In this document: positions 1,593 to 63,149 of the stretch, piece after piece
Position numbering within the stretch: the stretch's first letter is position 1
How the letters are laid out: each line of letters starts with the position of its first letter
From: Halogeometricum sp. S1BR25-6
GTDB lineage: Archaea; Halobacteriota; Halobacteria; Halobacteriales; Haloferacaceae
Direction of reading: 5' to 3'
Length of the DNA stretch: 64,000 nucleotides
NCBI RefSeq assembly: GCF_031624495.1
Contig: NZ_JAMQOP010000004.1
Coordinates: forward strand, 62,001 to 126,000
The notes under the pieces: model-generated
The model's database searches: none
Seen by the model: only the letters and a program-made list of their open reading frames with translations
Told to the model about the DNA's origin: nothing
Program-made: the position numbers and the translations under genes

Positions 1593-2246
1593 CTATCCCG
1601 GTCCGAACGCGGCGATGTCGGCGCCCACCGTCGCCAGCGCGTCCGCCGGGTTCGGGTCGCTGTCCGCCAAGTGCGTGTAGCGGTGGTCCGGGACGTTCGA
1701 CAGCGCCGCGGCGATGGCCTCGCTGTACGTCTCCACGCCCGGTTCCGTCGGGTCGTCGCCGCCCCAGACGTCCCGGATGACCGTCATCGAGTCGATGCGA
1801 ACCTCCAGACTGCGCGGCTCGTAGCGGGTCAGCAGCTCCGAAAGCCCGAGTTGGAGGGCGACGTACTCGGCGACGTTGTTCCCCGTCCGAGAACCGGCGG
1901 GGCGGCCGAGGCGTGCGAGTTGCGTCTCCTGGGAGTCCACGATGACGGCCCCCGCCCCCGCGGGGCCGGGGTTCCCGCGCGAACTGCCGTCGACGTAGAG
2001 CACGAAGGCGTCGCTCGCCGGTTCGACTGCGGGCGGTCGAGCGAGGTCCGACGCCGACAGTTCTTCGAGCGCTCCTCGCAACTCGGTCCGTTCGGTCGCC
2101 GGGTCGAAGAGGCCGCCGTGGCCGGGGACGGCATCGTCGATGACCTCGGTGGCGGCCGTCATCTCGTACCCGACGTCCGCGAGAACGTCGTCGACGCCCG
2201 CGGCGAGCGGCGAGAGGTATTCGGCCGGAAGTCCCTCGTCGGTCAC
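1593..2246 (-). CDS. rnhA: ribonuclease HI family protein
   Basis: A 217-residue protein with a haloarchaeal N-terminal extension (about residues 1-78) followed by an RNase H fold. Acidic active-site positions are visible: YVDGSSRGNPG (Asp near 86), NNVAEYVAL (Glu), RIDSMTV (Asp) and NPADALA (final Asp). It would cleave the RNA strand of RNA-DNA hybrids in replication and repair, and is probably a core gene unrelated to the sugar genes. The chosen start is GTG at 2246, because the frame upstream is unlike protein and related halophile proteins (from memory) begin near EGLPAEYLSPLA. A short ORF ends on this GTG. Confidence 0.85.
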   Translation of the reverse strand: MTDEGLPAEYLSPLAAGVDDVLADVGYEMTAATEVIDDAVPGHGGLFDPATERTELRGALEELSASDLARPPAVEPASDAFVLYVDGSSRGNPGPAGAGAVIVDSQETQLARLGRPAGSRTGNNVAEYVALQLGLSELLTRYEPRSLEVRIDSMTVIRDVWGGDDPTEPGVETYSEAIAAALSNVPDHRYTHLADSDPNPADALATVGADIAAFGPG

Positions 2247-2326
2247 GATGCCCGCCCCTCTTGCGCGTTCCGAGCCGTCTCCCTCTCCGCTCGGAGCGAT
2301 TCCGTCCGCGGCTGGTGCCGCTGCAT
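2243..2326 (-). CDS. possible 27-residue leader ORF overlapping the rnhA start
   Basis: An ATG at 2326 opens a 27-codon frame rich in Arg and Glu (MQRHQPRTESL...) whose TGA stop overlaps the GTG start of rnhA in a GTGA arrangement. A TATA-like sequence (ATTATG on the minus strand, near 2350) lies about 25 bases upstream of this ATG, so the ATG would be the first codon of a leaderless transcript. rnhA, about 80 bases further on, would then be translated by termination-reinitiation. Whether the peptide is functional or only couples translation is unknown. Confidence 0.33.
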   Translation of the reverse strand: MQRHQPRTESLRAERETARNAQEGRAS

Positions 2327-2707
2327 AGCGGCTCTCGGTGGCCGAGCGACATAATCTCTTTCGACGGCTTCGTCGAGTTCGTCCTCCGACCCCAGCGTCG
2401 AATCGACCGCTCAAACTCGAAGGGGTCCCGGAGACGGCACCGCGGAGTACGGCAGTCGGAGCGATAGTACCGCTCTGCGAGACATCTCCTGAGGGGTCTG
2501 TAACCGTATCCTCCGTATCTGAAACCGCAAGTGGCAAAGATAGATGTAAATATCGGAATACGAGTTCGCATTTCGACCGACCCCCTGATCCGGCTCTGCT
2601 CGGCGAACGGAGGAGCGGTAAACGGCGCTGCCGTCTCGAACCCCCTTGGGTCGAGAGCGTCGGGCGGGACCCACACCCTTATCCACCGGGTCGTCGTTTC
2701 TGCATCC

Positions 2708-4934: not shown

Positions 4935-4956
4935 ATTACACCCGTAGTATTGTAAT
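4935..4956. repeat. inverted repeat ATTAC-N12-GTAAT, possible operator
   Basis: Five-base arms ATTAC and GTAAT are separated by 12 bases. The spacer length and the right half (TAGTATTGTAAT) match two longer inverted repeats at 18485-18508 and 47060-47085. It lies about 125 bases upstream of the sarcosine oxidase-family gene. With only five-base arms it could be coincidence. Confidence 0.35.
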
Positions 4957-13783: not shown

Positions 13784-15349
13784 TTACCGTTCGGCGTCCG
13801 CCGCCGAGACGACGGCGTCGGCCATCGGTCCGTAGTTGCCGCCGAGGAGGACCGACGAGGCGTCGCCGTCGCGGAGGCGGACGAACGGGCCGCCGTCCGA
13901 CGGCGCCGTGCACCCGGCAACGCGGAGTCGGTCGACCCCGCCCGCCTCGACGACCGGTGCGGCGTCAGTTTCGTCTTCCTTCTCAGTCATCGCCTCGAAC
14001 CCCTCCAAGAGGACGGACGAACTCTCCTCGACGGTCAGCGGGGTCCCGTCGGGAACCGTCACGCGGACGTCTCGGAACGAGACGCTGCCGAGCGACTTGC
14101 AGAAGATACCGTGTCGCTGCTCGTACCCCGCCGCCATCGCCGGCGAGAGGTCCGTCGCGTCGAACGGTCGCGTGGCGTCGATGTCCACGTCGGTGAACGA
14201 GATTCCCTCGAACCGCTGTTCGGGGAGGCCGGCGAGGAAGGCGGCCGACTCGACTTCCTCGGCGGTGATGTGGTGGAAGTTCACGTTTCGGACGTTCGGC
14301 GTCGCCTCGTCCACCGGTTTCGGGTCGCTGTCGATGTCCGTCTGGTAGTAGCCGTTGAGGACGAACGGGCACGCGACGCGCCGCATCACGATGGTGTCGA
14401 ACCGGAGGTCCTCCACGGTCCCCCCGCGGCCGCGCTTCGATTTGATTCGGATACCCCTGTCGGTGTCGGTGAACGTGCAGTTCGTGACGGTGACGTGCCG
14501 CACGTCGCCGGCCGTCTCGCTCCCGACGACGACGCCGCCGTGCCCGTGTTCGACCGTGCAGTTGGTGACGACCACGTTCTCTGTCGGTCGACCCACCGCT
14601 CGGCCCTCCTCGTCCTTTCCGGACTTCAGACAGATGGCGTCGTCGCCGGCGTCGATGTGCGTGTCGCTGACGCGGACGAACCGCGAGGAGTCGATGTCGA
14701 TGCCGTCGCCGTTGGGCGCGTCCGGCGGGTTGCGAATCGACACGTCGTGTATCGTCACGTCCTCGGAGTAGACGACGTGCGTGTTCCAGAACGGGGAGTT
14801 TCGAAGCGTCACGCCCGAAACGGTGACGTTCTCGCATCCGTCTATCTGGAGGAGCGGCGGTCGAACGGTGAAAGTGCTCACCTCGTCCTGTCGGTGTCCG
14901 CTTCGAATCTCCGCCAGTCGCTCTTGGAGGCCCTCCGGGAACTCCGATTCCGGCGTCCCGACGAAGTCCCACCAGTAGGACCCGCCGCCGTCTATCACGC
15001 CCTCGCCCGTGACGGTCACGTTCGCGGCGTCCGCGACGTACAGGCAGGGGTGGAAGCCGTCCTGGTCCCACCCCTCCCAGCGGCTCTCTACCGTGGGGAA
15101 CTCGCGAAAGTCGCCGACGAACCGGAGTTCGGCGCCGTTCGCCACGCGCAGCGTTGTGTCGTCGCCGACGCGCAGGGGGGCGCTTCGGTACGTCCCGGGG
15201 GGGATATACACCTCACCCCCCTCGCCGGCGCAGTCGTCGAGCGCCGTCTGGATGGCCTCGGTGTCGAGCGAATCATCGTTCTCGATGCCGTACTCGCGCA
15301 CGTTCCGCTGATCGGGAGTCACGCTCGAAGCATCCCCGACGACCTTCAT
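13784..15349 (-). CDS. glycoside hydrolase family 28 polygalacturonase-like enzyme
   Basis: A 521-residue right-handed beta-helix enzyme. The start FPTVESRWEGWD and the family signature are clear: NGDGIDID at about 213-220 (catalytic Asp), DAGDDAICLKSG at 233-244 (two catalytic Asp), GHGG at 269-272 and RIKS at 301-304. It hydrolyses alpha-1,4-galacturonosyl bonds. The length, the YYQTDID segment and lack of a signal peptide resemble bacterial exo-polygalacturonases or rhamnogalacturonan-oligomer hydrolases that work in the cytoplasm. A promoter (ATTATAAACC on the minus strand, 15393-15402) lies about 50 bases upstream. It is convergent with the SGNH esterase. Confidence 0.9.
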   Translation of the reverse strand: MKVVGDASSVTPDQRNVREYGIENDDSLDTEAIQTALDDCAGEGGEVYIPPGTYRSAPLRVGDDTTLRVANGAELRFVGDFREFPTVESRWEGWDQDGFHPCLYVADAANVTVTGEGVIDGGGSYWWDFVGTPESEFPEGLQERLAEIRSGHRQDEVSTFTVRPPLLQIDGCENVTVSGVTLRNSPFWNTHVVYSEDVTIHDVSIRNPPDAPNGDGIDIDSSRFVRVSDTHIDAGDDAICLKSGKDEEGRAVGRPTENVVVTNCTVEHGHGGVVVGSETAGDVRHVTVTNCTFTDTDRGIRIKSKRGRGGTVEDLRFDTIVMRRVACPFVLNGYYQTDIDSDPKPVDEATPNVRNVNFHHITAEEVESAAFLAGLPEQRFEGISFTDVDIDATRPFDATDLSPAMAAGYEQRHGIFCKSLGSVSFRDVRVTVPDGTPLTVEESSSVLLEGFEAMTEKEDETDAAPVVEAGGVDRLRVAGCTAPSDGGPFVRLRDGDASSVLLGGNYGPMADAVVSAADAER

Positions 15350-16880: not shown

Positions 16881-18125
16881 TCACCGACCGGAGATTGTCT
16901 CGACGAGCGTCCGCGCGACGAGGCCGGCGGCGACGAACGCGAGGAGGCTGATGCAGACGAACGCCGTCGCGTAGTCGAAGCGGGTGGCGAGGACGCCGAC
17001 GACGAGGGGTCCGAGCACGCCGCCGAGGCCGCGCGCCGTCGAGCGGAGACCCATCAGTTCGGACTCGCGGTCGACGGGCGCGACGTCCCCGACGAAGGCG
17101 ATCGTACCGACGGTCAGCATCGAGAAGGTGACGGCGTGGACGACGAACGCGGCGCTGCTGACGCCGATGCGGAGGAGGTTCCCCTCGGGAACGAGCGCGA
17201 GGACGACGACCAGCGCTTGGACGCCGCTCCCGGCGAGTCCGCCGACGATGAGTTTCTTCCGCCCGACGGCGTCGCTCAGGCGACCGAACCCGTACATCGA
17301 CACCATCCGGACCGCCGGACTGACTGCGAGCACGGCGCCCATCGCCACGTTCGAGAGGCCGACGTCGGAGACGAGAAACACCGGAACGACCGCGATGAAG
17401 CCCTTCTCCGTCATGTTGCGGAGCACGATGCCGACGTAGAGCCAACCGAGTCCGGTCCGCCGGAACAGCGTTCGCTTCGCGCCGGTCGGGACGAGTCGCC
17501 CGCGGACCTCGCTCAGCAGTCGACGCGGTGTGAGCGTCGCCCCCGACGACGGCGTCGGGTCGCGGATGCGGAGCGTGCACACCGCCGCGACAAGACCGAG
17601 GACGACGACGAGGAGGTAGAGCCCCGTCGGCACCAACACTCCGACGAGGTAGCCGACGAACAGGCGACCGCTGATGGCTCCGGTCGAGCGAGCGCTGCTG
17701 TAGAACCCGACGGAGCGTCCGCGTCCGGTCTCGCCGCCGGTCTCGCTCACGATGGTGAGAATCACCGACTGGAAGCCGGCGGTGAACACGGCGAAGAGAC
17801 CCCGACAGAGGATTTCGAGCGGGACCGAAACGCGTACCGTCAACGGGACCACCGCGAGCGTCGAGAGGACGGCGGTTCCGACGAGTATCGCGCGCCGACG
17901 TCCCGTAATATCGGCGACCGCACCCCAGACGGGCGCGAACGCGAACAGACCGAAGGAGAACGCCGCGTAGGCGAGACTCACCGCGAACGGCGACCCGCGC
18001 CGACCGATGTAGACGGCCACCGCCGTCCCGAACAGCGACCCGCAGGCGACGCGGGAGATACCGATGAGAGCGATGGCACTCCGCTGTCCGCGAAGCAACC
18101 GCGTGACCGCCCTCACGTTCGACAC
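16881..18125 (-). CDS. MFS transporter
   Basis: A 414-residue membrane protein with about 12 hydrophobic helices in two halves. Motif A-like loops are visible as GAVADITGRRRAILVG (about residues 67-82) and GRLSDAVGRKKLIVGG (about 270-285). It is a proton- or ion-coupled carrier of unknown substrate, though the pectin context and the palindromic sites in the 500 bases upstream suggest a regulated sugar or oligosaccharide carrier. The ATG at 18125 is the first start before helix 1. Leftward, followed by the esterase at 15739. Confidence 0.88.
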   Translation of the reverse strand: MSNVRAVTRLLRGQRSAIALIGISRVACGSLFGTAVAVYIGRRGSPFAVSLAYAAFSFGLFAFAPVWGAVADITGRRRAILVGTAVLSTLAVVPLTVRVSVPLEILCRGLFAVFTAGFQSVILTIVSETGGETGRGRSVGFYSSARSTGAISGRLFVGYLVGVLVPTGLYLLVVVLGLVAAVCTLRIRDPTPSSGATLTPRRLLSEVRGRLVPTGAKRTLFRRTGLGWLYVGIVLRNMTEKGFIAVVPVFLVSDVGLSNVAMGAVLAVSPAVRMVSMYGFGRLSDAVGRKKLIVGGLAGSGVQALVVVLALVPEGNLLRIGVSSAAFVVHAVTFSMLTVGTIAFVGDVAPVDRESELMGLRSTARGLGGVLGPLVVGVLATRFDYATAFVCISLLAFVAAGLVARTLVETISGR

Positions 18126-18194: not shown

Positions 18195-18211
18195 GTTCCC
18201 TTTGAGGGAAC
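18195..18211. promoter_or_regulatory. palindrome GTTCCC-N5-GGGAAC, candidate IclR operator
   Basis: A perfect six-base inverted repeat with spacer TTTGA, 70 bases upstream of the MFS start. The same motif, with identical arm and spacer length, lies directly upstream of the IclR gene at 46043-46813. Confidence 0.55.
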
Positions 18212-18484
18212 GACGTGGTGGGGAGGGACGTGAGATGGTCTGATGAGAGAGACGAAGAGGACGGGCGCCGGTGCACGGCAAAAACGTCGGTCGCTTTCCA
18301 TCGAAGACGTGATTGCTGTTCCCCCCACGCGAACGGATTTCGGTCGGTCTCAGAGTGACGAGAGCGGTGAGCGATTTCGTCCGAATGCGCCCAAAACGAC
18401 CGGCTCAAACAGTCACGGCCGGGTGTGTGTGCGTGTCTCACCTTTTCGTCCGGGGCCGCTGATAGTGTTCTCGGCACTCCAGTT

Positions 18485-18508
18485 CGTTACGATTCTAATA
18501 CTGTAACG
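18485..18508. promoter_or_regulatory. inverted repeat CGTTAC-N12-GTAACG
   Basis: Six-base perfect arms with a 12-base AT-rich spacer. A closely similar element, with seven-base arms and the same spacer length, is at 47060-47085. The right halves share TA(A/G)T-x-CTGTAACG. It is followed after five bases by a GTTCTC-N5-GGGAAC site. Confidence 0.5.
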
Positions 18509-18513
18509 CACAA

Positions 18514-18530
18514 GTTCTCCTATCGGGAAC
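18514..18530. promoter_or_regulatory. palindrome GTTCTC-N5-GGGAAC, candidate IclR operator
   Basis: Second copy of the motif in this intergenic region, with one mismatch between arms (T for C) and spacer CTATC. It lies nearly 400 bases upstream of the MFS start. Confidence 0.5.
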
Positions 18531-21297: not shown

Positions 21298-23412
21298 ATG
21301 GTAGAGAAGAACTACTACGTCAGGCGGATAGTACAGTCTTTAGTGACTGTATTGGCGGCGATCACGTTCTCGTTCGTGACGATACGTCTCATCCCCGGTG
21401 GGCCGATGGACTACATCGCCGCACAGATACGGCAGCGCTCCGGCGGATCGGTTTCGACGGCGCGCCTCAACCAGATGGTCGAGATGTACTCGAACGTTAA
21501 TCCCTCGAAGCCGATGTGGGAGGCGTACGTCGATTACATCGTCTCGGTGGCGCAACTGGACTTCGGCCGGTCGATATTCTACGCCGACCCGGTCTGGGAC
21601 GTGCTCGGCCCGGCGATTCCGTGGACGATGTTCGTCTCGCTGTTCGCGCTCGTCATCGGGACGGTGATGGTGTTCCTCATCGGCGGCTTCCTCGCCGTCC
21701 ACGAGGGCGACACCTGGGACGTCGTCGGGAGCTACTTCGTCATCTTCTCCGACGCGGTACCCTACTACGTCGTCGGACTCGTGCTCCTGTTCGTGTTCGG
21801 ATTCGGGACGGAGTTCTTCCCCAACGGGGGGCGCTACGACAACTCCCTGACGCCCGGATTCAACATCGAGTTCATGGCCAGCGTACTCAGACACGCCGCG
21901 TTGCCCATCATGTCCTTCGCGCTCACCTCGTGGGGCGGCCTTGAGTTCCGCGCGCACTGTACGCGGATCATCGGCGAGGACTATGTGGACGTGGCCGAAC
22001 TCCGGGGACTCCCCGACAGCAGGATCCAACTGCGGTACATCGGCTGGAACTCGATGCTCCCGATGTACACGGGCCTCATGGCCGGCCTCGCCAGCCTCTT
22101 CGGCGGGTCGGTCATCATGGAGCAGATATTCCGCTACCGCGGCATGGGCTTTTACTTCTACGAGGCCACGATGGCGCGGGATTACACGACGGTGATGGCG
22201 GCGGTCATCCTCTTCACCGTCGTCACCGTCATCGGCCTCCTCATCGCCGACTTCACCTACGGCTTCATCGACCCCCGCGCCGGCCACAGCCAACGGGAGT
22301 CCTACTCGCGTTCGTACCGCGAACAGTTCCAGCGGTTCGTCAACCGCCTCCGGAACGGTCGCGGCGAGGAGAGCGAGACCATCGACGACCGCATTCAGGA
22401 CAGTCGCGTCTCGAAGAGCGGCGCGATGAGCTTCGACGTCGAGCAGTCGGACTTCTCGCGCGGCGACTACGTTCGCGAGCGCATCGACCAAAGCCTCCTG
22501 ACGCCGTTCCGCATTATCTGGACGTCGCCGCGGGCCCGCGTCGGCGCGATCATCCTCGCAATATTCGGGTTCATGGGGCTGTTCGGACCGTACCTCGTTC
22601 GGCCCGTCGACCCGATGCAGGGGCCGATTCTTCTGCAACCGCTGGAGAACCTGGCCTACCCGCTCGGCACCGACGACATCGGCCGCGACCTCTTCGCCCA
22701 GCAGGTGCGGGCGACGCGTCCGATGCTCATCATGATGCTGTCGGGCGCGGCGGTGACGCTCGGTCTCGCCATCCTCCTCGGCGTCACCGCAGGCTACCTC
22801 GGCGGCCTCATCGACAAGGTGCTGATGACCATCACGGACGTGATGATGAACATCCCCGGCTTGGCGCTGGTCATCGTCCTCGCCGTCATCCTCTCGCCGA
22901 AGAGTCCGGTGTTCGTCGGGGTCATCCTCGCCGTCGACAACTGGCCGCGGCTGGCGCGACAGCTCCGTTCGCAGGTGCTCACCATCCGCGGCGAGGCGCA
23001 CGTCGAGGCCTCCCGCGTCCTCGGCCTGCCGACCAAGAGCATCCTCTCGAAGAACGTCATGTCCCGGCTCATGCCGATGCTGACGATGGGGACGGTCGGC
23101 TCGATGCGGAACATCCTCATGGAGTCGGTCGGCCTGTACTTCCTGGGCATCCTCCCCTTCACGACGAACAACTGGGGCATCGTGCTCAACATCGCCCGCA
23201 ACGGCGGCGCGCTCTCGGGCGTGGACCGGTTCCACTGGCTCCTCGCGCCCATCCTGTTCATCGTCACGATGACGTACGGGCTCCAACTGTTCGCGCAGGG
23301 GACCGACCGCCTGTTCAACCCCCGCCTCCGCGCGCGGCACGCGGCGACCGTCTCGACCGACGAGACGGAGGAGGAAGGCCGCGGCGGGTCGTCCGCCTCC
23401 GCGGCCGACTGA
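21298..23412 (+). CDS. fused DppB-DppC type ABC permease
   Basis: A 704-residue polypeptide holding both permease subunits of a peptide/oligosaccharide importer. Residues about 1-330 match DppB: a first helix at 8-30, IRLIPGGP, and an EAA-type loop EDYVDVAELRGLPDSRIQLR near 225. Residues about 400-690 match DppC: the TDDIGRDLF segment near 460, an EAA-type loop GEAHVEASRVLGLPTKSIL near 565, and GLQLFAQGTDRLFNPR at the end. A polar linker (about 335-400) joins them. In most such operons these are separate genes. No stop or frameshift separates the halves. A TATA element at 21261-21270 precedes the ATG. It follows the binding protein by 188 bases. Confidence 0.9.
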   Translation: MVEKNYYVRRIVQSLVTVLAAITFSFVTIRLIPGGPMDYIAAQIRQRSGGSVSTARLNQMVEMYSNVNPSKPMWEAYVDYIVSVAQLDFGRSIFYADPVWDVLGPAIPWTMFVSLFALVIGTVMVFLIGGFLAVHEGDTWDVVGSYFVIFSDAVPYYVVGLVLLFVFGFGTEFFPNGGRYDNSLTPGFNIEFMASVLRHAALPIMSFALTSWGGLEFRAHCTRIIGEDYVDVAELRGLPDSRIQLRYIGWNSMLPMYTGLMAGLASLFGGSVIMEQIFRYRGMGFYFYEATMARDYTTVMAAVILFTVVTVIGLLIADFTYGFIDPRAGHSQRESYSRSYREQFQRFVNRLRNGRGEESETIDDRIQDSRVSKSGAMSFDVEQSDFSRGDYVRERIDQSLLTPFRIIWTSPRARVGAIILAIFGFMGLFGPYLVRPVDPMQGPILLQPLENLAYPLGTDDIGRDLFAQQVRATRPMLIMMLSGAAVTLGLAILLGVTAGYLGGLIDKVLMTITDVMMNIPGLALVIVLAVILSPKSPVFVGVILAVDNWPRLARQLRSQVLTIRGEAHVEASRVLGLPTKSILSKNVMSRLMPMLTMGTVGSMRNILMESVGLYFLGILPFTTNNWGIVLNIARNGGALSGVDRFHWLLAPILFIVTMTYGLQLFAQGTDRLFNPRLRARHAATVSTDETEEEGRGGSSASAAD

Positions 23413-44106: not shown

Positions 44107-46035
44107 ATGCGCGAATTCGAGGCGACCACCGAGTCGGCCCATCCGCCGACGTGGGCGCGCCGGCAGCGAGCGTTGTTCGACGTGACGGCCGACGCCGTCG
44201 ACCGGTTCGTCGAGGACTACACCGGACCGGACGGGGACCCGTTCTGGCCGCCCGCGGACCACGTGGGCATCGACGGTTTCGACGACGTGGTCGAGGGGGT
44301 CTGCAACTGGCCGTTACTGTACGCGATGGGCGGCGACGAACGACTCCTCGACCACGCCCGGCGTGTGTACGAGTCGGCGCTCGAACGCGGCGCGGCGACG
44401 GAGACGCCGTTCGGTCACCCGATGGTCGTCGACGAGTTCGAGCAGTGCCGCGACTGGTTTCACCTCGGGGAGGGCAACCGCTACATCTACAACATGGGGC
44501 TGGCCGCTCCGGACGACGAGACGGTCAGAGCGCGCGCGACGCGGTTCGCCGACCTCTACCTCGGGGACGCGGCGGTCGACAACTACGACGCCGAGAAGCG
44601 ACTGGTTCGCGGCCCGATGAACGGGAGCATGGGGCCGGAGTACTGCGACTTCGCCGCGTACGAACACCATCCGTACGGCGCGGACTACCGCTGGGCGCGG
44701 CACGGCCTCCCGTGGCGCGACCTGGAGTTCGACGAGGCCGCGGACCTCCTCGACCCGGCGAACGAGGAGCGACTGTTCGAGGTGCTGAACGAGCGGTGTG
44801 CGACGGGCGACATCCCGCTCAACCTCGCCATCACGAGTCTGATGACGAACGCCTACCTCCACACGGGCGACGACGAATACCGGGAGTGGGTCACCGACTA
44901 CCTCGACGCGTGGCGCGAGCGGACGGCGGCGAACGGCGGAATCGTCCCCGACAACGTCGGGCGGTCCGGCGAGATAGGCGAGTGCACCGACGGCTCGTGG
45001 TACGGGGGGTACTACGGTTGGTCGTGGGGCGGGTGGCACTACGTCGGTATCGGCCCCACCGTCGCCGCGGAGAACGCCGTCCTCTTAGAGGGCGACGAGG
45101 AGTATCTGGAGTTCCCCCGCTCGCAGTTGGACCGCCTCGTCGAGAACGGCATCGAGGTGTCCGAAGACGACGTGCACAGTACGCTTCACATCCCGCACAA
45201 GTACGGCGGGGAAGGCGACTACCACTACGACGCCTCGGGCGTTCTCACCGAAGACGACGGCGAGGTGCTCTGGAAGGACGGCTGGTACGAGTTCAAGCCC
45301 CACCAGGACGACCCGTACGCCGTCCACCTCTGGTCCGTCTCGATGGACGAAGCGGACAGAGAGCGGATTCGTCGGCTTCGCGACTGGGGGAAGCAGGATT
45401 GGAGGCGGGTCGACCCCCGCGCGAAGACGAAGCACGGCGACGGCCACGAGTACGCGTGGCTCGCGTACCTCGACGGGGAGTTCCCGGACTATCCCGAGCG
45501 CGTTCTCGACGCGACGCGCGAGCACGTCAGAGAGCGGTTGCGCCTGTTCGACGCCGAAGGGAACGAACCGACGACCGTCGACGAGGACTACCTCCGGGAC
45601 CGAAACCCCGCCTTCCACGCGGCGCTGCTGCAACTCACGATGGGCGCGCCGCAACCGGTGTACTACGGCGGTCTCCTGATGGCGCAGGTGCGTCACTTCG
45701 ACGCCCGCAGAGAGCGCCCGGGACTCCCCGAGGGCGTCGCAGCGCTCGTGGAGTCGGTGTCGGACGACGGCATCGAACTGACGCTGGTCAACGTCGGCGC
45801 CGAGTCGGAGGAGGCGATCGTGCAGGCGGGCGCGTACGGCGAGCACCGATTCGACGCCGTGGAGACGAACGGGGACGCGAACGGCGACGAGGCGGGGGAC
45901 GCCCGAGAGAGGGACGAACCCGGCGAGGCGAACGCGGTACGGGTTCACCTGCCGGCCGGTAGTCGACTCTCGATGACGGCGGAAGTCGAGCGCTTCGCGA
46001 ACGACCCGAGCTACGAGTTCCCGTGGGCGGAGTGA
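44107..46035 (+). CDS. 642-residue protein of unrecognised family, alpha/alpha-barrel-like
   Basis: A soluble protein without signal peptide. The alternation of helices with aromatic turns (CNWPLLYAMGGDERLLDHARR, AYLHTGDDEYREWVTDYLDAWRER, YYGWSWGGWHYVGIGPTVAAENAVLL) looks like the (alpha/alpha)n-barrel of cytoplasmic glycosidases, epimerases or polysaccharide lyases. A small C-terminal beta domain (about residues 550-640) is suggested by repeated strands. Candidate acidic or His residues are many, so no active site is claimed. The ATG at 44107 lies about 31 bases after a TATA-like GAATATTC. It ends 7 bases from the convergent IclR gene at 46043. In context a glycosidase acting on pectic oligomers is likely. 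Confidence 0.6.
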   Translation: MREFEATTESAHPPTWARRQRALFDVTADAVDRFVEDYTGPDGDPFWPPADHVGIDGFDDVVEGVCNWPLLYAMGGDERLLDHARRVYESALERGAATETPFGHPMVVDEFEQCRDWFHLGEGNRYIYNMGLAAPDDETVRARATRFADLYLGDAAVDNYDAEKRLVRGPMNGSMGPEYCDFAAYEHHPYGADYRWARHGLPWRDLEFDEAADLLDPANEERLFEVLNERCATGDIPLNLAITSLMTNAYLHTGDDEYREWVTDYLDAWRERTAANGGIVPDNVGRSGEIGECTDGSWYGGYYGWSWGGWHYVGIGPTVAAENAVLLEGDEEYLEFPRSQLDRLVENGIEVSEDDVHSTLHIPHKYGGEGDYHYDASGVLTEDDGEVLWKDGWYEFKPHQDDPYAVHLWSVSMDEADRERIRRLRDWGKQDWRRVDPRAKTKHGDGHEYAWLAYLDGEFPDYPERVLDATREHVRERLRLFDAEGNEPTTVDEDYLRDRNPAFHAALLQLTMGAPQPVYYGGLLMAQVRHFDARRERPGLPEGVAALVESVSDDGIELTLVNVGAESEEAIVQAGAYGEHRFDAVETNGDANGDEAGDARERDEPGEANAVRVHLPAGSRLSMTAEVERFANDPSYEFPWAE

Positions 46036-46042
46036 GAGCGCC

Positions 46043-46813
46043 CTAGGAGAACTTGGTGTTGAGTTCGATGACGTTCGCCGCGCGGCAGACGTGTTCGGAG
46101 AGTTCGCCGTGGAGACGCTCCTCCGTGAACCGGCTCGTGGGACCGGAGATGCTGATGGCGCCGAGCACCGACTGCCCGTCCTTCACCGGCGCGGCGACGC
46201 AGCGGAGTCCCTGGATGTTCTCCTCGTCGTCGATGCCGTACCCGCGTTCGAGCGTGGCCTCCAACTCCGCGTACAGTTCCTCGGGGTTCGAGAGCGTGTT
46301 CGGCGTGTGCTGTTCGAAGCTGGACTGCTCGATTATCTCGGCCTGTCGCTCCTCGGGGAGGTGCGCGAGGATGGTCTTGCCGAGCGACGTGGAGTACATG
46401 GGCTGGTGGGTTCCGACGCGGGAGGCCGTCTCGACTGCCCTGGAGCCCCTCGCTTTGCAGAGGTACGAGACGCGCCCGTACTCCTCGATGCCGAAGTGGG
46501 CTATCTCGCCCGTCTCCGCGGCCAGTTCGTCGACCTCCTTTTCGATGACGTCGTAGTTACCGACCTGGTCGCGGACGTGCTTGGCCATGTCGAGGATGCG
46601 GAGACTCAGGCGGTAGCCGTCCTCCTCGGACACCAGTATCTCCTCGTCGACCAGCGTCTTCAGGTGGCTGTGCACCGTGCTCTTCGAGTGGCCGAGTTCC
46701 TCGGAGATATCGGTCAGCGTCCGCTTGTTCTCGTCCTGCAGAAGGTCGACGATGGAGAACGCTATCTTTACGCCCCGAATCCGCCGCCCCGTTTCCTCCG
46801 CCGGTGTGCTCAT
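46043..46813 (-). CDS. IclR-family transcriptional regulator (second of three)
   Basis: A 256-residue regulator. The winged helix-turn-helix is at about 20-70 (LTDISEELGHSKSTVHSHLKTL) and the effector domain follows (MYSTSLGKTILAHLP, ERGYGIDDEENIQGLRCVAAPV, LGAISISGPTSRF). The ATG at 46813 is used because a TATA-like GATTTAAGCC lies about 27-30 bases upstream and the first ATG at 46834 would fall too close. Directly upstream of this TATA is a perfect GTTCCC-N5-GGGAAC palindrome, which suggests self-regulation. Two more copies lie between this gene and the divergent ThuA gene. It probably controls the pectin genes carrying this motif. Confidence 0.9.
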   Translation of the reverse strand: MSTPAEETGRRIRGVKIAFSIVDLLQDENKRTLTDISEELGHSKSTVHSHLKTLVDEEILVSEEDGYRLSLRILDMAKHVRDQVGNYDVIEKEVDELAAETGEIAHFGIEEYGRVSYLCKARGSRAVETASRVGTHQPMYSTSLGKTILAHLPEERQAEIIEQSSFEQHTPNTLSNPEELYAELEATLERGYGIDDEENIQGLRCVAAPVKDGQSVLGAISISGPTSRFTEERLHGELSEHVCRAANVIELNTKFS

Positions 46814-46846
46814 AGTGCACACACTGGAACGCACCGGCTTAAATCT

Positions 46847-46863
46847 GTTCCCGTCCCGGGAAC
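46847..46863. promoter_or_regulatory. palindrome GTTCCC-N5-GGGAAC next to the IclR promoter
   Basis: Perfect six-base inverted repeat with spacer GTCCC, adjoining the upstream side of the TATA element of the IclR gene that starts at 46813. A site at this position usually helps activators or covers the TFB recognition element. Confidence 0.6.
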
Positions 46864-46978
46864 GAGGTTCGTGCTAGCAAACGGCGCATCCCTCCCGGAG
46901 TCGAACGCCTACGCCGCCCCGGCGGTCCGGTCGGCCTCAGACGTGACAGGAATCGGTACGCTGTCCCCCGACAAATCG

Positions 46979-46995
46979 GTTCCCCCTGTGGGAAT
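46979..46995. promoter_or_regulatory. palindrome GTTCCC-N5-GGGAAT
   Basis: Third member of the motif at this locus, with a single end mismatch and spacer CCTGT. It lies mid-way between the divergent IclR and ThuA genes. Confidence 0.45.
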
Positions 46996-47059
46996 TTTTT
47001 CCGGCGCTCGCGAAGACTCGAACAGGAGAATCCATCGGAAGACGGTTCGGAACGGCTGT

Positions 47060-47085
47060 CCGTTACTGATATAGTTCTGTAACGG
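47060..47085. promoter_or_regulatory. inverted repeat CCGTTAC-N12-GTAACGG
   Basis: Seven-base perfect arms separated by 12 bases. It is the longest of three similar elements; the one at 18485-18508 has the same core arms and spacer length. It contains an AT-rich centre (GATATAG) and lies about 200 bases upstream of ThuA. Confidence 0.5.
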
Positions 47086-47187
47086 AAACTCGCCGTCGTA
47101 TCAGACGGTGGTCATCGGTAATCGAGTGAAGTCGTAGAGAGAACTTCTCTGTCTCTCTCGGCACCGCACACGCGGGGAACGGACCCG

Positions 47188-47204
47188 GTTCCCGCATCGA
47201 GAAC
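47188..47204. promoter_or_regulatory. palindrome GTTCCC-N5-GAGAAC
   Basis: Copy with one internal mismatch in the right arm (spacer GCATC), about 50 bases upstream of the ThuA TATA element at 47253-47260. The adjacent CGGGGAAC at 47172-47180 could pair with it as well. Confidence 0.4.
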
Positions 47205-47282: not shown

Positions 47283-48005
47283 ATGTCGATTCGAGTCACC
47301 GTCTGGAACGAGAACGTTCACGAGCGGGAGGAACCCGACGTGGCCGACCGGTACCCGAACGGAATCCACGGCGCCGTCGCCGAACACCTCGACGCGGAGG
47401 GGTACGACGCGGGGACGGCGACGCTCGGCGACCCCGAACACGGATTGGACGAAGAGACCCTCGCCGACACCGACGTGCTTGTCTGGTGGTCCCACTGCGC
47501 CAACGACGAAGTGCGCGACGACGTCGCGGACCGCGTCGTGGACCGCGTCCACGAGGGGATGGGGTTCGTCCCCCTCCACTCGGGGAAGAACTCCAAGCCG
47601 TTCACGCGACTGATGGGGACGACCTGCAACATCAAGTACCGCCACGGCGGCGAACGCGAACGCGTGTGGGTCGTCGACCCCGGTCATCCTATCGCGGACG
47701 GCCTGGACGAGCAGTTCGTCATCCCGGAGACGGAGACGTACGGCGAACCGTACGACATTCCGGAACCCGACCGGACCGTCCTCGTCTCGTGGTTCGAGGG
47801 GGGCGAGGTGTTCCGTTCGGGGGTCTGCTACCGTCGCGGACGCGGCCGCATCTTCGCGTTCCGACCGGGGCACGAGGAGTACCCCATCTTCCACCAGGCG
47901 GAGGTCAAGCGGGTGATAGCCAACGCCGTCGAGTGGGCCGCCCCGAATGAAGGCGCCTCGGCCCGATGGGGGGAGACCGACCCCCTCGAAGCGGTCGACG
48001 AGTGA
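47283..48005 (+). CDS. ThuA-domain protein (2 of 2)
   Basis: A 240-residue ThuA-family protein, closer to the canonical bacterial ThuA than the one at 32656. It begins IRVTVWNENVHEREEPDVADRYPNGIH; other segments are DVLVWWSHCANDEVRDDVADRVV, GMGFVPLHSGKNSKPFTRLMG and the C-terminal RGRGRIFAFRPGHEEYPIFH. The family acts in disaccharide or keto-sugar use, often with a Gfo/Idh/MocA partner. It is divergent from the IclR gene at 46043 across a region with many palindromes, so is likely to be under that regulator. The TATA element lies 27 bases before the ATG. Confidence 0.88.
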   Translation: MSIRVTVWNENVHEREEPDVADRYPNGIHGAVAEHLDAEGYDAGTATLGDPEHGLDEETLADTDVLVWWSHCANDEVRDDVADRVVDRVHEGMGFVPLHSGKNSKPFTRLMGTTCNIKYRHGGERERVWVVDPGHPIADGLDEQFVIPETETYGEPYDIPEPDRTVLVSWFEGGEVFRSGVCYRRGRGRIFAFRPGHEEYPIFHQAEVKRVIANAVEWAAPNEGASARWGETDPLEAVDE

Positions 48006-61031: not shown

Positions 61032-63149
61032 TTACCGCATGACGCTCGTCCGCGTCCGGATATCGCGCGAGGACCGACCGACCTCGACGGCGTACTCCCC
61101 GTCGTCGGTCGTCCAGCCCCCGTCTTCGTCCTCATCCTCGTCGTAGCGGCGGAACGCCAGTTCGTCCAGCGAGACGCTCACCGTCGTCGACTCGCCCGCG
61201 GCGAGTTCCACGGCGGCGTAGCCCGCGAGTTCGCGTTCGGGTCTGTCGACGCCGTCGACGGCCGGTGCCGCGACGTACGCCTGCACGACTTCGCGGCCGT
61301 CGCGGTCGGAGACGTTCTCCACCTCGACCTCGACCGTCGACTCTCCGGCCATCTCGGCGTCGCCGTACGCGAACTCCGCGTAGGAGAGACCGTGGCCGAA
61401 CGGGTACGTCGGTTTCTCCTCGGCGGCGTCGAAGTGGCGGTAGCCGACGAACACGCCCTCGTCGTAGTCCGCTTTGTAGTCGACGCCGGGGAACCGCTCC
61501 TCGGTGTTCGCCGGGTACGACCCCTCGGGCGCGAACGTCACCGGGAGGCGACCCGCGGCGTCGGCGTCGCCGTACAGCACCGCCGCGGCGGCGTCGCCGT
61601 CGGCCTGTCCGGGGTACCACGTCACCGCGACGGCGGCGACGTCCTCGCGCCACGGCATCTCGACGGGGCCGCCGGACTGGACGAGGACGATCGTCCGGTC
61701 GTTCGCCGCGGCGACCGCTTCGACCAGTTCGTCCTGCTCGCCGGGTAGACGGAGGCTCTCGCGGTCCTCGGCCTCGGAGTTCGCGTCCCGGACGACGACG
61801 ACGGCGACGTCCGCCTCGGCGGCGCGTTCGACGGCCTCGTCGAGACTCGGTTCGTCGTCTCCGGTCTCGGGTTCCTCCTCCGACTCGTGGTCGAAGAACG
61901 ACGGCGTCCGTATCCTCGCGACGCCCTGTGCGTACTCGACGGTGCCCTCCGAGCGCGCTCGAATCCCGTCGAGCGTCGGCGTCTCGCGCGCCGATTCGAC
62001 TTCCGAGGACCCGCCGCCGCCGAGCATCGCGTCTTCGGCGCCTGGACCGAGGATGGCCACGTCCGCGTTGGCGTCGAGCGGGAGGACGCCGTCGTTCTCC
62101 AAGAGGACGGTCGCCCGCGCGGCGATGGTCTCGGCGAGCGACCGGTGTTCGGGCGTGTCGACGGCGCCGTCGTCGCGTTCACCGTCTAAGAGGCTCACGC
62201 GCTCCATCTGTCGCAGGATGCGCGTCACCATGTCGTCGAGGCGGGACTCCGGAACCTCGCCCGACTCGACGGCCTCCTCCAGTGAGGCGGCGAACAGCCC
62301 CGCCTTTGCGTCGGGGCCCGGAAGCGCCTCCCCGTCGGCGTCTTCGAACAGGTCGGTGTCGGGATCCATCTGGAAGGCGTCCTTCAACTCCTCGAAGGTG
62401 ATGCCCGGCATCTCCAGGTCGAGACCGGCGTTCGCCGACCCGGCGACGCTGTTCGTCCCGAACCAATCGGAGACGACGTAGCCGTCGAAGCCCCACTCCT
62501 CTTTGAGGACGTCGGTGAGCAGGCGGCGGTGGTCGCTCATGTGCGTCCCGTTGACGCGGTTGTACGAGGTCATCACCGACCCCGCGCCTGCCTCGACGGC
62601 CGCCCGGAAGCCGGGGAGATAGAGTTCTCGGAGCGTCCGCTCGCTCATCTCGGCGCTGACGCGGAGTCGTTTCGTCTCCTGATTGTTGGCGACGTAGTGC
62701 TTCGGCGTCGCGATGACGTCCTCGGACTGGATGCCCTCCACCGCGGTCGCGGCGAAGTCGGCGGTCAGCACGGGGTCTTCCGAGTAGTACTCGAAGTTCC
62801 GCCCGCAGTGGGGGACGCGAATCAGGTTCAGGCCGGGACCGAGTATCGAGTCCTGTCCTCGCGCCTTCGCCTCGCGGCCCATCGCGACGCCCTGGCGTCC
62901 GGCGAGTTCGGAATCGAACGTCGCCGCGAGGGCGATAGCGGCCGGAAACGCCGTCGCGGTCTGACCGGGAACGCGAACGCCGAGGGGGCCGTCGACCAGT
63001 TTCAGTTCGGGTATGTCCAGCCGTTCGACGCCCGGTAGGTATCCCGTCGCGGTTCGTTCGGGGTCCACGGCGCCGTGAACGAGGCTCACCTTCTCCTCGC
63101 GCGTGAGCGCGCCGACCAACTCTTCCACGCGTCCGCTGGGGTTCGTCAT
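61032..63149 (-). CDS. glycoside hydrolase family 3 beta-glycosidase
   Basis: A 705-residue enzyme with full GH3 layout: an N-terminal barrel with KHYVANNQET (150-159) and the nucleophile Asp in VVSDWFG (Asp 228), a middle beta/alpha sandwich (PGAEDAMLGGGGSSEVES), and a C-terminal fibronectin-like domain (about 590-700). It has no signal peptide. Beta-glucosidase or beta-xylosidase activity is typical; galactan or gluco-oligosaccharide side chains are possible targets here. A TATA (AATATTAATC on the minus strand, 63177-63187) is about 33 bases upstream. It is divergent from the third IclR gene. Confidence 0.93.
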   Translation of the reverse strand: MTNPSGRVEELVGALTREEKVSLVHGAVDPERTATGYLPGVERLDIPELKLVDGPLGVRVPGQTATAFPAAIALAATFDSELAGRQGVAMGREAKARGQDSILGPGLNLIRVPHCGRNFEYYSEDPVLTADFAATAVEGIQSEDVIATPKHYVANNQETKRLRVSAEMSERTLRELYLPGFRAAVEAGAGSVMTSYNRVNGTHMSDHRRLLTDVLKEEWGFDGYVVSDWFGTNSVAGSANAGLDLEMPGITFEELKDAFQMDPDTDLFEDADGEALPGPDAKAGLFAASLEEAVESGEVPESRLDDMVTRILRQMERVSLLDGERDDGAVDTPEHRSLAETIAARATVLLENDGVLPLDANADVAILGPGAEDAMLGGGGSSEVESARETPTLDGIRARSEGTVEYAQGVARIRTPSFFDHESEEEPETGDDEPSLDEAVERAAEADVAVVVVRDANSEAEDRESLRLPGEQDELVEAVAAANDRTIVLVQSGGPVEMPWREDVAAVAVTWYPGQADGDAAAAVLYGDADAAGRLPVTFAPEGSYPANTEERFPGVDYKADYDEGVFVGYRHFDAAEEKPTYPFGHGLSYAEFAYGDAEMAGESTVEVEVENVSDRDGREVVQAYVAAPAVDGVDRPERELAGYAAVELAAGESTTVSVSLDELAFRRYDEDEDEDGGWTTDDGEYAVEVGRSSRDIRTRTSVMR

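Follow-up and report, generated by a model that had tools for sequence, protein, structure and literature searches.

The stretch of DNA that we analyzed (the window; 64,000 nucleotides, positions 62001 to 126000 of contig C4) belongs to a 4.5-Mb haloarchaeal genome, the contigs of which are referred to here as C1 to C4. The genome is of the same genus as Halogeometricum pallidum, whose IclR-family protein is 94% identical to the one encoded at 46043 of the window. Gene calls and domain searches located a GH28 gene (at 13784), a pectinesterase gene (48056) and a GH4 gene (34827) in the window, together with two galactarate/altronate-dehydratase halves (28748 and 30186), a DHDPS-family aldolase or dehydratase (42862), three MR/MLE dehydratases, five Gfo/Idh/MocA oxidoreductases, two ThuA genes and a PepT ABC transporter (from 19010 onward). 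Around the orthologs of the 46043 regulator in other genomes we likewise found genes for GH28, pectate lyase, GH4, UxaA and a DHDPS-family aldolase. The region around 46043 is a pectin/galacturonate gene island. It also contains a single 704-aa ORF (21298 to 23412) with two BPD_transp_1 domains, 97% identical in H. pallidum, which is apparently a fusion of two PepT permeases. A 642-aa protein encoded at 44107 to 46035 had no relatives in Pfam, NCBIfam or PDB; its gene is kept beside iclR/ThuA and the aldolase gene in several genera, and it is probably an uncharacterized pathway enzyme. The genes and palindromic sites at the center of the analysis, the latter listed as putative operators, are as follows.

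46043 to 46813, minus strand: IclR-family regulator, proposed reader of the palindrome (HTH_IclR and IclR_C; start taken as the ATG at 46813)
46838 to 46843, minus strand: iclR TATA box, TTTAAG, approximate coordinates (by inspection; leaderless layout, the ATG following after about 25 nt)
46847 to 46863, unstranded: putative operator at the iclR promoter, also distal ThuA operator at -436 (3 nt upstream of TATA; position shared by ortholog loci)
46979 to 46995, unstranded: putative middle ThuA operator at -304, imperfect, ending in GGGAAT (pattern match, ortholog comparison)
47188 to 47204, unstranded: putative proximal ThuA operator at -95, 49 nt upstream of TATA (pattern match, ortholog comparison)
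47283 to 48005, plus strand: ThuA-domain gene downstream of this array (Pfam ThuA, 5.2e-33; ThuA-like PDB entry 1t0b, 2.4e-88)
16881 to 18125, minus strand: MFS transporter gene, preceded by the second array (Pfam MFS_1, 9.1e-45)
18195 to 18211, unstranded: putative proximal MFS operator at -86, 36 nt upstream of TATA (pattern match)
18318 to 18334, unstranded: putative one-mismatch MFS operator at -209 (one-mismatch search; rank 5 by matrix)
18514 to 18530, unstranded: putative distal MFS operator at -405 (pattern match; likely H. pallidum counterpart GTTCCCGTCAGGGGAAC at a contig end)
1878 to 1894, unstranded: further strict match to the palindrome, judged to be chance (within the RNase H-like gene at 1593 to 2537, minus strand; ranked after the six array sites)

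The preliminary description had placed three copies of the palindrome GTTCYC-N5-GRGAAY between iclR and ThuA and two upstream of the MFS gene, and all five were found where it put them (46847, 46979, 47188, 18195 and 18514). The copy at 46979 is nevertheless imperfect (GTTCCC...GGGAAT) and fits the pattern on one strand only, and at the MFS gene a third site with one mismatch had been missed, at 18318 (GTTCCCCCCACGCGAAC). The copy at 46847, said to abut the iclR TATA box, ends 3 nt before TTTAAG. That there is no other intergenic copy in the window was also correct for the strict pattern, because the sole further strict match lies inside the RNase H-like gene. Altogether, the strict pattern gave 11 strand matches in the window, corresponding to 6 places, compared to 0.15 expected from dinucleotide shuffling. 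When two mismatches were allowed over the window, the counts were those expected by chance, and the signal is therefore confined to near-exact copies.

Genome-wide, the strict pattern occurred at 10 places and a reversed control pattern at none, and the matches were not spread over coding DNA, an outcome that the preliminary description had named as refuting its proposal. Six of the 10 lie within the 64-kb window (P of ∼2e-9, a rough figure, as it was this finding that led to the choice of window). Eight were judged to be intergenic (P of ∼9e-6, again rough, given an assumed 15% of noncoding genome and with one site, C2:910770, that is doubtful as intergenic). A matrix trained on relatives alone placed the six array sites at ranks 1 to 6 in the window (16.8 to 22.2 bits; the 18318 site at rank 5), followed by the coding match at 1878 and then a gap, while 0.07 sites would be expected at ≥16 bits. 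The other island promoters in the window showed no clear site with this matrix. Matrix scanning covered the window, and the genome-wide counts are from pattern searches.

Orthologs of the 46043 protein, 64 to 94% identical, were present in 16 other genomes (17 including its own) of a family-wide sample of 119. In all 17, the palindrome was found just upstream of the iclR start, and in the ortholog loci inspected it ended 2 to 3 nt before the iclR TATA box. We then included eight plasmid-borne orthologs from named taxa (Halopiger, Haloarcula marina, Haloterrigena, Halomontanus, Halostagnicola, Halocatena, Natrinema zhouii and Halosolutus); here the palindrome was intact in three, off at the first base in three and degenerate at the same place in two. 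Over 24 such autosites, the arm columns carried 1.3 to 2.0 bits and the N5 columns 0.3 to 0.8 bits, and nearly invariant arms around five variable central bases are the pattern expected of a dimer on two half sites. Genomes with an ortholog (n = 17) had 4.94 strict sites on average, compared to 1.37 in those without (n = 102; P = 9e-9, kinship ignored), with no difference for the reversed control (0.41 and 0.44, respectively). Among the 16 IclR genes of the genome, that at 46043 is the only one with the palindrome at its own TATA box. The proposed role of the palindrome as operator for the 46043 regulator thus gains support from both the footprint in orthologs and the co-occurrence, and, judged from sequence comparison, we consider it highly probable.

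Relatives 54 to 55% identical to the 46043 protein have similar palindromes. Two IclR paralogs, at C4:350737 and C4:437275, carry GTTC-type palindromes of differing sequence (GTTCTCTAGACCAGAAC; GTTCC-N7-GGAAC) in the corresponding position by the TATA box, which hints that the half sites of haloarchaeal IclR proteins may follow a readable code. Since the outer arms resemble the sites of other IclR proteins, paralogs could share some of the sites.

These shared GTTC-type half sites, and the location of one strict site (C3:273561) next to a paralog with 43% identity, are what would be expected if a different regulator, either an IclR paralog or a cotraveling factor, controlled both iclR and ThuA through the palindrome. 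We regard this as unlikely, given that presence of the site follows that of the 46043 ortholog from genus to genus, whereas the neighboring genes change; moreover, the two other IclR genes of the window, 5187 and 63485, were rejected as owners, the palindrome being absent from their promoters. Still far less probable are chance palindromes or RNA hairpins and terminators. Palindromes can indeed act as hairpins, and one strict match is coding, but the sites at iclR, ThuA and MFS lie upstream of TATA boxes, their arms and not their loops are conserved, and the enrichment over shuffled sequences and the reversed control is large.

The preliminary description had also proposed a regulon of transport and ThuA. 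This is supported by ThuA orthologs with sites, the MFS branch being lineage specific. Such ThuA orthologs, with iclR adjacent, occur in Halogeometricum, Halobonum and Haladaptatus, and further ones in a genus that we call Haloarcula-like as a guess from its gene neighborhoods (genomes G028, G084, G101, G106, G111, G292 and G314). In the latter, iclR, where it could be located, is far from ThuA, and a gene of the 642-aa family lies upstream of ThuA instead. ThuA orthologs in the rest of the order, 72 to 78% identical, are mostly without sites, which speaks against the proposal. At the MFS gene, we found three sites here and one in Halobonum, while its orthologs in the Haloarcula-like genus (G028/G084/G111 type) have no site within one mismatch, which is why we consider this branch lineage specific. 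In relatives, the palindrome, partly with one mismatch, was additionally found upstream of orthologs of the GDSL gene 12760, the Gfo gene 41811, the DUF1349 gene 7285 and the esterase gene 15739.

Outside the island, a perfect palindrome at C2:229078-229094 precedes a Gfo/Idh/MocA-like gene by 64 nt and a TATA-like stretch by 18 nt; this gene, which follows an apparent sugar ABC transporter operon, is a possible extra member of the regulon. Another perfect palindrome, at C3:273561-273577, has the 43% IclR paralog on one side and a PepT-type ABC operon on the other and is plausibly either a regulon site or the paralog's own. The strict site at C2:910770 may fall inside an N-terminally extended frame, and that at C1:408652, inside an ORF of an AT-rich element, was discarded as chance. 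In a further genome (G044), a set of three sites, one strict and two with one mismatch, with spacings of 124 and 220, sits between GH3-like and aldo/keto-reductase-like genes (contig C13; L100:7328-7688).

New here is that three putative operators lie upstream of ThuA at a spacing that is kept across genera, while the DNA between them is not. The sites are at -436/-304/-95 in the present genome, -434/-304/-94 in H. pallidum, -444/-302/-94 in Halobonum and -429 to -433/-302 to -306/-94 to -97 in the Haloarcula-like genus, where the imperfect last base of the middle site (GGGAAT) recurs. The Haladaptatus set is displaced to -539/-395/-189, with spacings of 144 and 206. In all genera compared, the distance between the proximal and middle operators was 206 to 210 bp, with a distal spacing of 127 to 144 bp; the spacings of the MFS array are 123 and 196. 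After gapping, the DNA between the 206- to 210-bp pair was 44 to 58% identical, compared to 48 to 53% for shuffled sequences, with z of >4 in two within-genus pairs only and z of >2.5 in one other pair. As this DNA is about as dissimilar as shuffled sequence at a constant distance, it is the distance that is kept and not the sequence. An operator array with spacings of 208 and 129 in genome G034 (contig C5; L104:6455-6808) is located beside the 642-aa gene without an adjoining ThuA gene and looks like a relic of rearrangement.

The ThuA and MFS upstream regions contain a second palindrome, RTTAC-N12-GTAAY, at the following places.

47062 to 47083, unstranded: GTTAC-N12-GTAAC at -221 of ThuA (alignment of ThuA upstream regions)
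18486 to 18507, unstranded: GTTAC-N12-GTAAC in the MFS upstream region (pattern match)

In its 22-bp form, RTTACA-N4-TA-N4-TGTAAY, it has a third copy in the window, at 4935 to 4956. In Halogeometricum and the Haloarcula-like genus, it lies at -221 to -225 relative to ThuA, whereas Halobonum and Haladaptatus lack it in the alignment of ThuA upstream regions. The genome holds 33 copies, versus none of the reversed pattern; 23 of the 24 copies inspected fell outside called genes, and 23 had a central TA. Several copies adjoin other IclR genes, and the pattern is common in many, although not all, haloarchaea. At ThuA, it is probably the site of another regulator. TrmB was considered as its owner; the reported Haloarcula TrmB motif is a 19-bp partial palindrome. 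Only tentatively do we suggest that three IclR operators and one site of this second type, read by a haloarchaea-wide regulator (at about -430, -303, -222 and -95), form a looped, enhanceosome-like assembly at ThuA that integrates pectin and general carbon signals, a possibility to which we give less than even weight.

How the regulator might act can be sketched as follows. One dimer of the 46043 protein would read one 17-bp palindrome, and the inducer would probably be a breakdown product of pectin or galacturonate. At iclR, the operator covers the BRE, where TFB would be placed, 2 to 3 nt from the TATA box, so that binding there most likely results in autorepression. For ThuA and MFS, where the nearest operator is 36 to 49 nt upstream of the TATA box, the regulator is most likely an activator, by analogy with XacR, GacR, RhcR and MscR, the haloarchaeal IclR regulators of sugar catabolism, which are activators (PMC11519228). 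The proximal operators at both genes are backed by two more, each about 120 to 210 bp further up. With the spacing kept, the bound dimers would meet as tetramers across a DNA loop, and perhaps the operators do interact by looping. Both the sign of regulation and the loop are uncertain, because, according to a 2020 review (PMC7408454), the sites of archaeal activators are frequently adjacent to the BRE or overlap it in part, and DNA looping is a presumption in archaea rather than an established fact.

The first of these points would favor opposite signs, that is, a regulator that activates its own gene while repressing ThuA and MFS or affecting them only weakly, as would the position of the proximal ThuA site, 48 to 49 nt from the TATA box and thus beyond what is usual for a direct archaeal activator. 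Yet the palindrome at iclR reaches to within 2 to 3 nt of the TATA box and overlies the BRE itself, as would be expected if TFB were excluded, and the characterized haloarchaeal IclR regulators activate catabolic genes; we therefore consider opposite signs rather improbable, if a serious alternative. Much harder to set aside, and in our view not far from an even chance, is that the arrays are multisite platforms raising the local concentration of the regulator, the spacing being kept for reasons of promoter length or chromatin and not of looping. The distances to the start codon (-95 and -303) are as constant as the distance between the operators, the distal spacing ranges between 127 and 144, and the MFS array has spacings of its own. 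Against this, the 206 to 210 bp are held in several genera over DNA that mostly aligns no better than shuffled sequence, and Haladaptatus retains 206 bp even though its whole array has shifted to -189. If the 208-bp spacing does reflect looping, the locus would offer a tractable test of distance action by archaeal IclR regulators; whether archaeal regulators act over a distance was still described as an open question in the 2020 review (PMC7408454).

The assignment of the 46043 protein to the IclR family is clear (HTH_IclR, 40 bits at a cutoff of 22, 3.4e-10; IclR_C, 141 bits at a cutoff of 24, 3.3e-41). Its scores against the NCBIfam equivalog models remained below the cutoffs for KdgR (137.9 versus 275 bits), PcaR/PcaU (138.1 versus 284.75) and BhcR (155.8 versus 350). 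As in IclR group 1, whose operator consensus is GKTYCRYW3-4RYGRAMC (PMC8222616), the predicted operator is a 17-bp inverted repeat upstream of the regulator gene with a GTT.C outer arm; the 24 autosites have the geometry GTTCC...GGAAC with GKTYC outer arms. The group also shares autoregulation together with control of one or two adjacent operons, and the layout expected for autoregulation, with a site at the regulator's own promoter, is present in this genome and in the orthologs. Unlike in group 1, positions 6 and 12 are not R/Y but C (23 of 24 autosites) and G (22 of 24), the core is unconstrained rather than A/T, the proteins are haloarchaeal, and the operators are 120 to 210 bp apart instead of the 18 to 22 nt of tandem group 1 sites. 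Enterobacterial KdgR is likewise an IclR-family protein associated with pectin-related genes; the 46043 protein nevertheless falls far below the cutoff of the KdgR model, and KdgR sites are A/T-rich palindromes (PMC8222616), whereas those described here are G/C rich. With XacR, GacR, RhcR and MscR (PMC11519228), it has in common that the IclR protein is encoded within the catabolic cluster that it is thought to control, in this case a pectin/galacturonate cluster, the comparison being one of cluster context. The arrays resemble the AraC and LacI looping systems in that a single promoter is preceded by multiple operators for the same regulator at fixed spacing; they differ from these in the archaeal TATA/BRE promoter, the unrelated protein family and a loop that we only infer. 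As an IclR-family member without a known equivalog, with a site that departs from the group 1 consensus, the 46043 protein and its palindrome represent, as far as the sequences tell, a new regulator-operator pair within a known class, with an array that is unusually wide and keeps its spacing; it would be a pair for haloarchaeal pectin use that may be read in many genomes from one 17-bp pattern.
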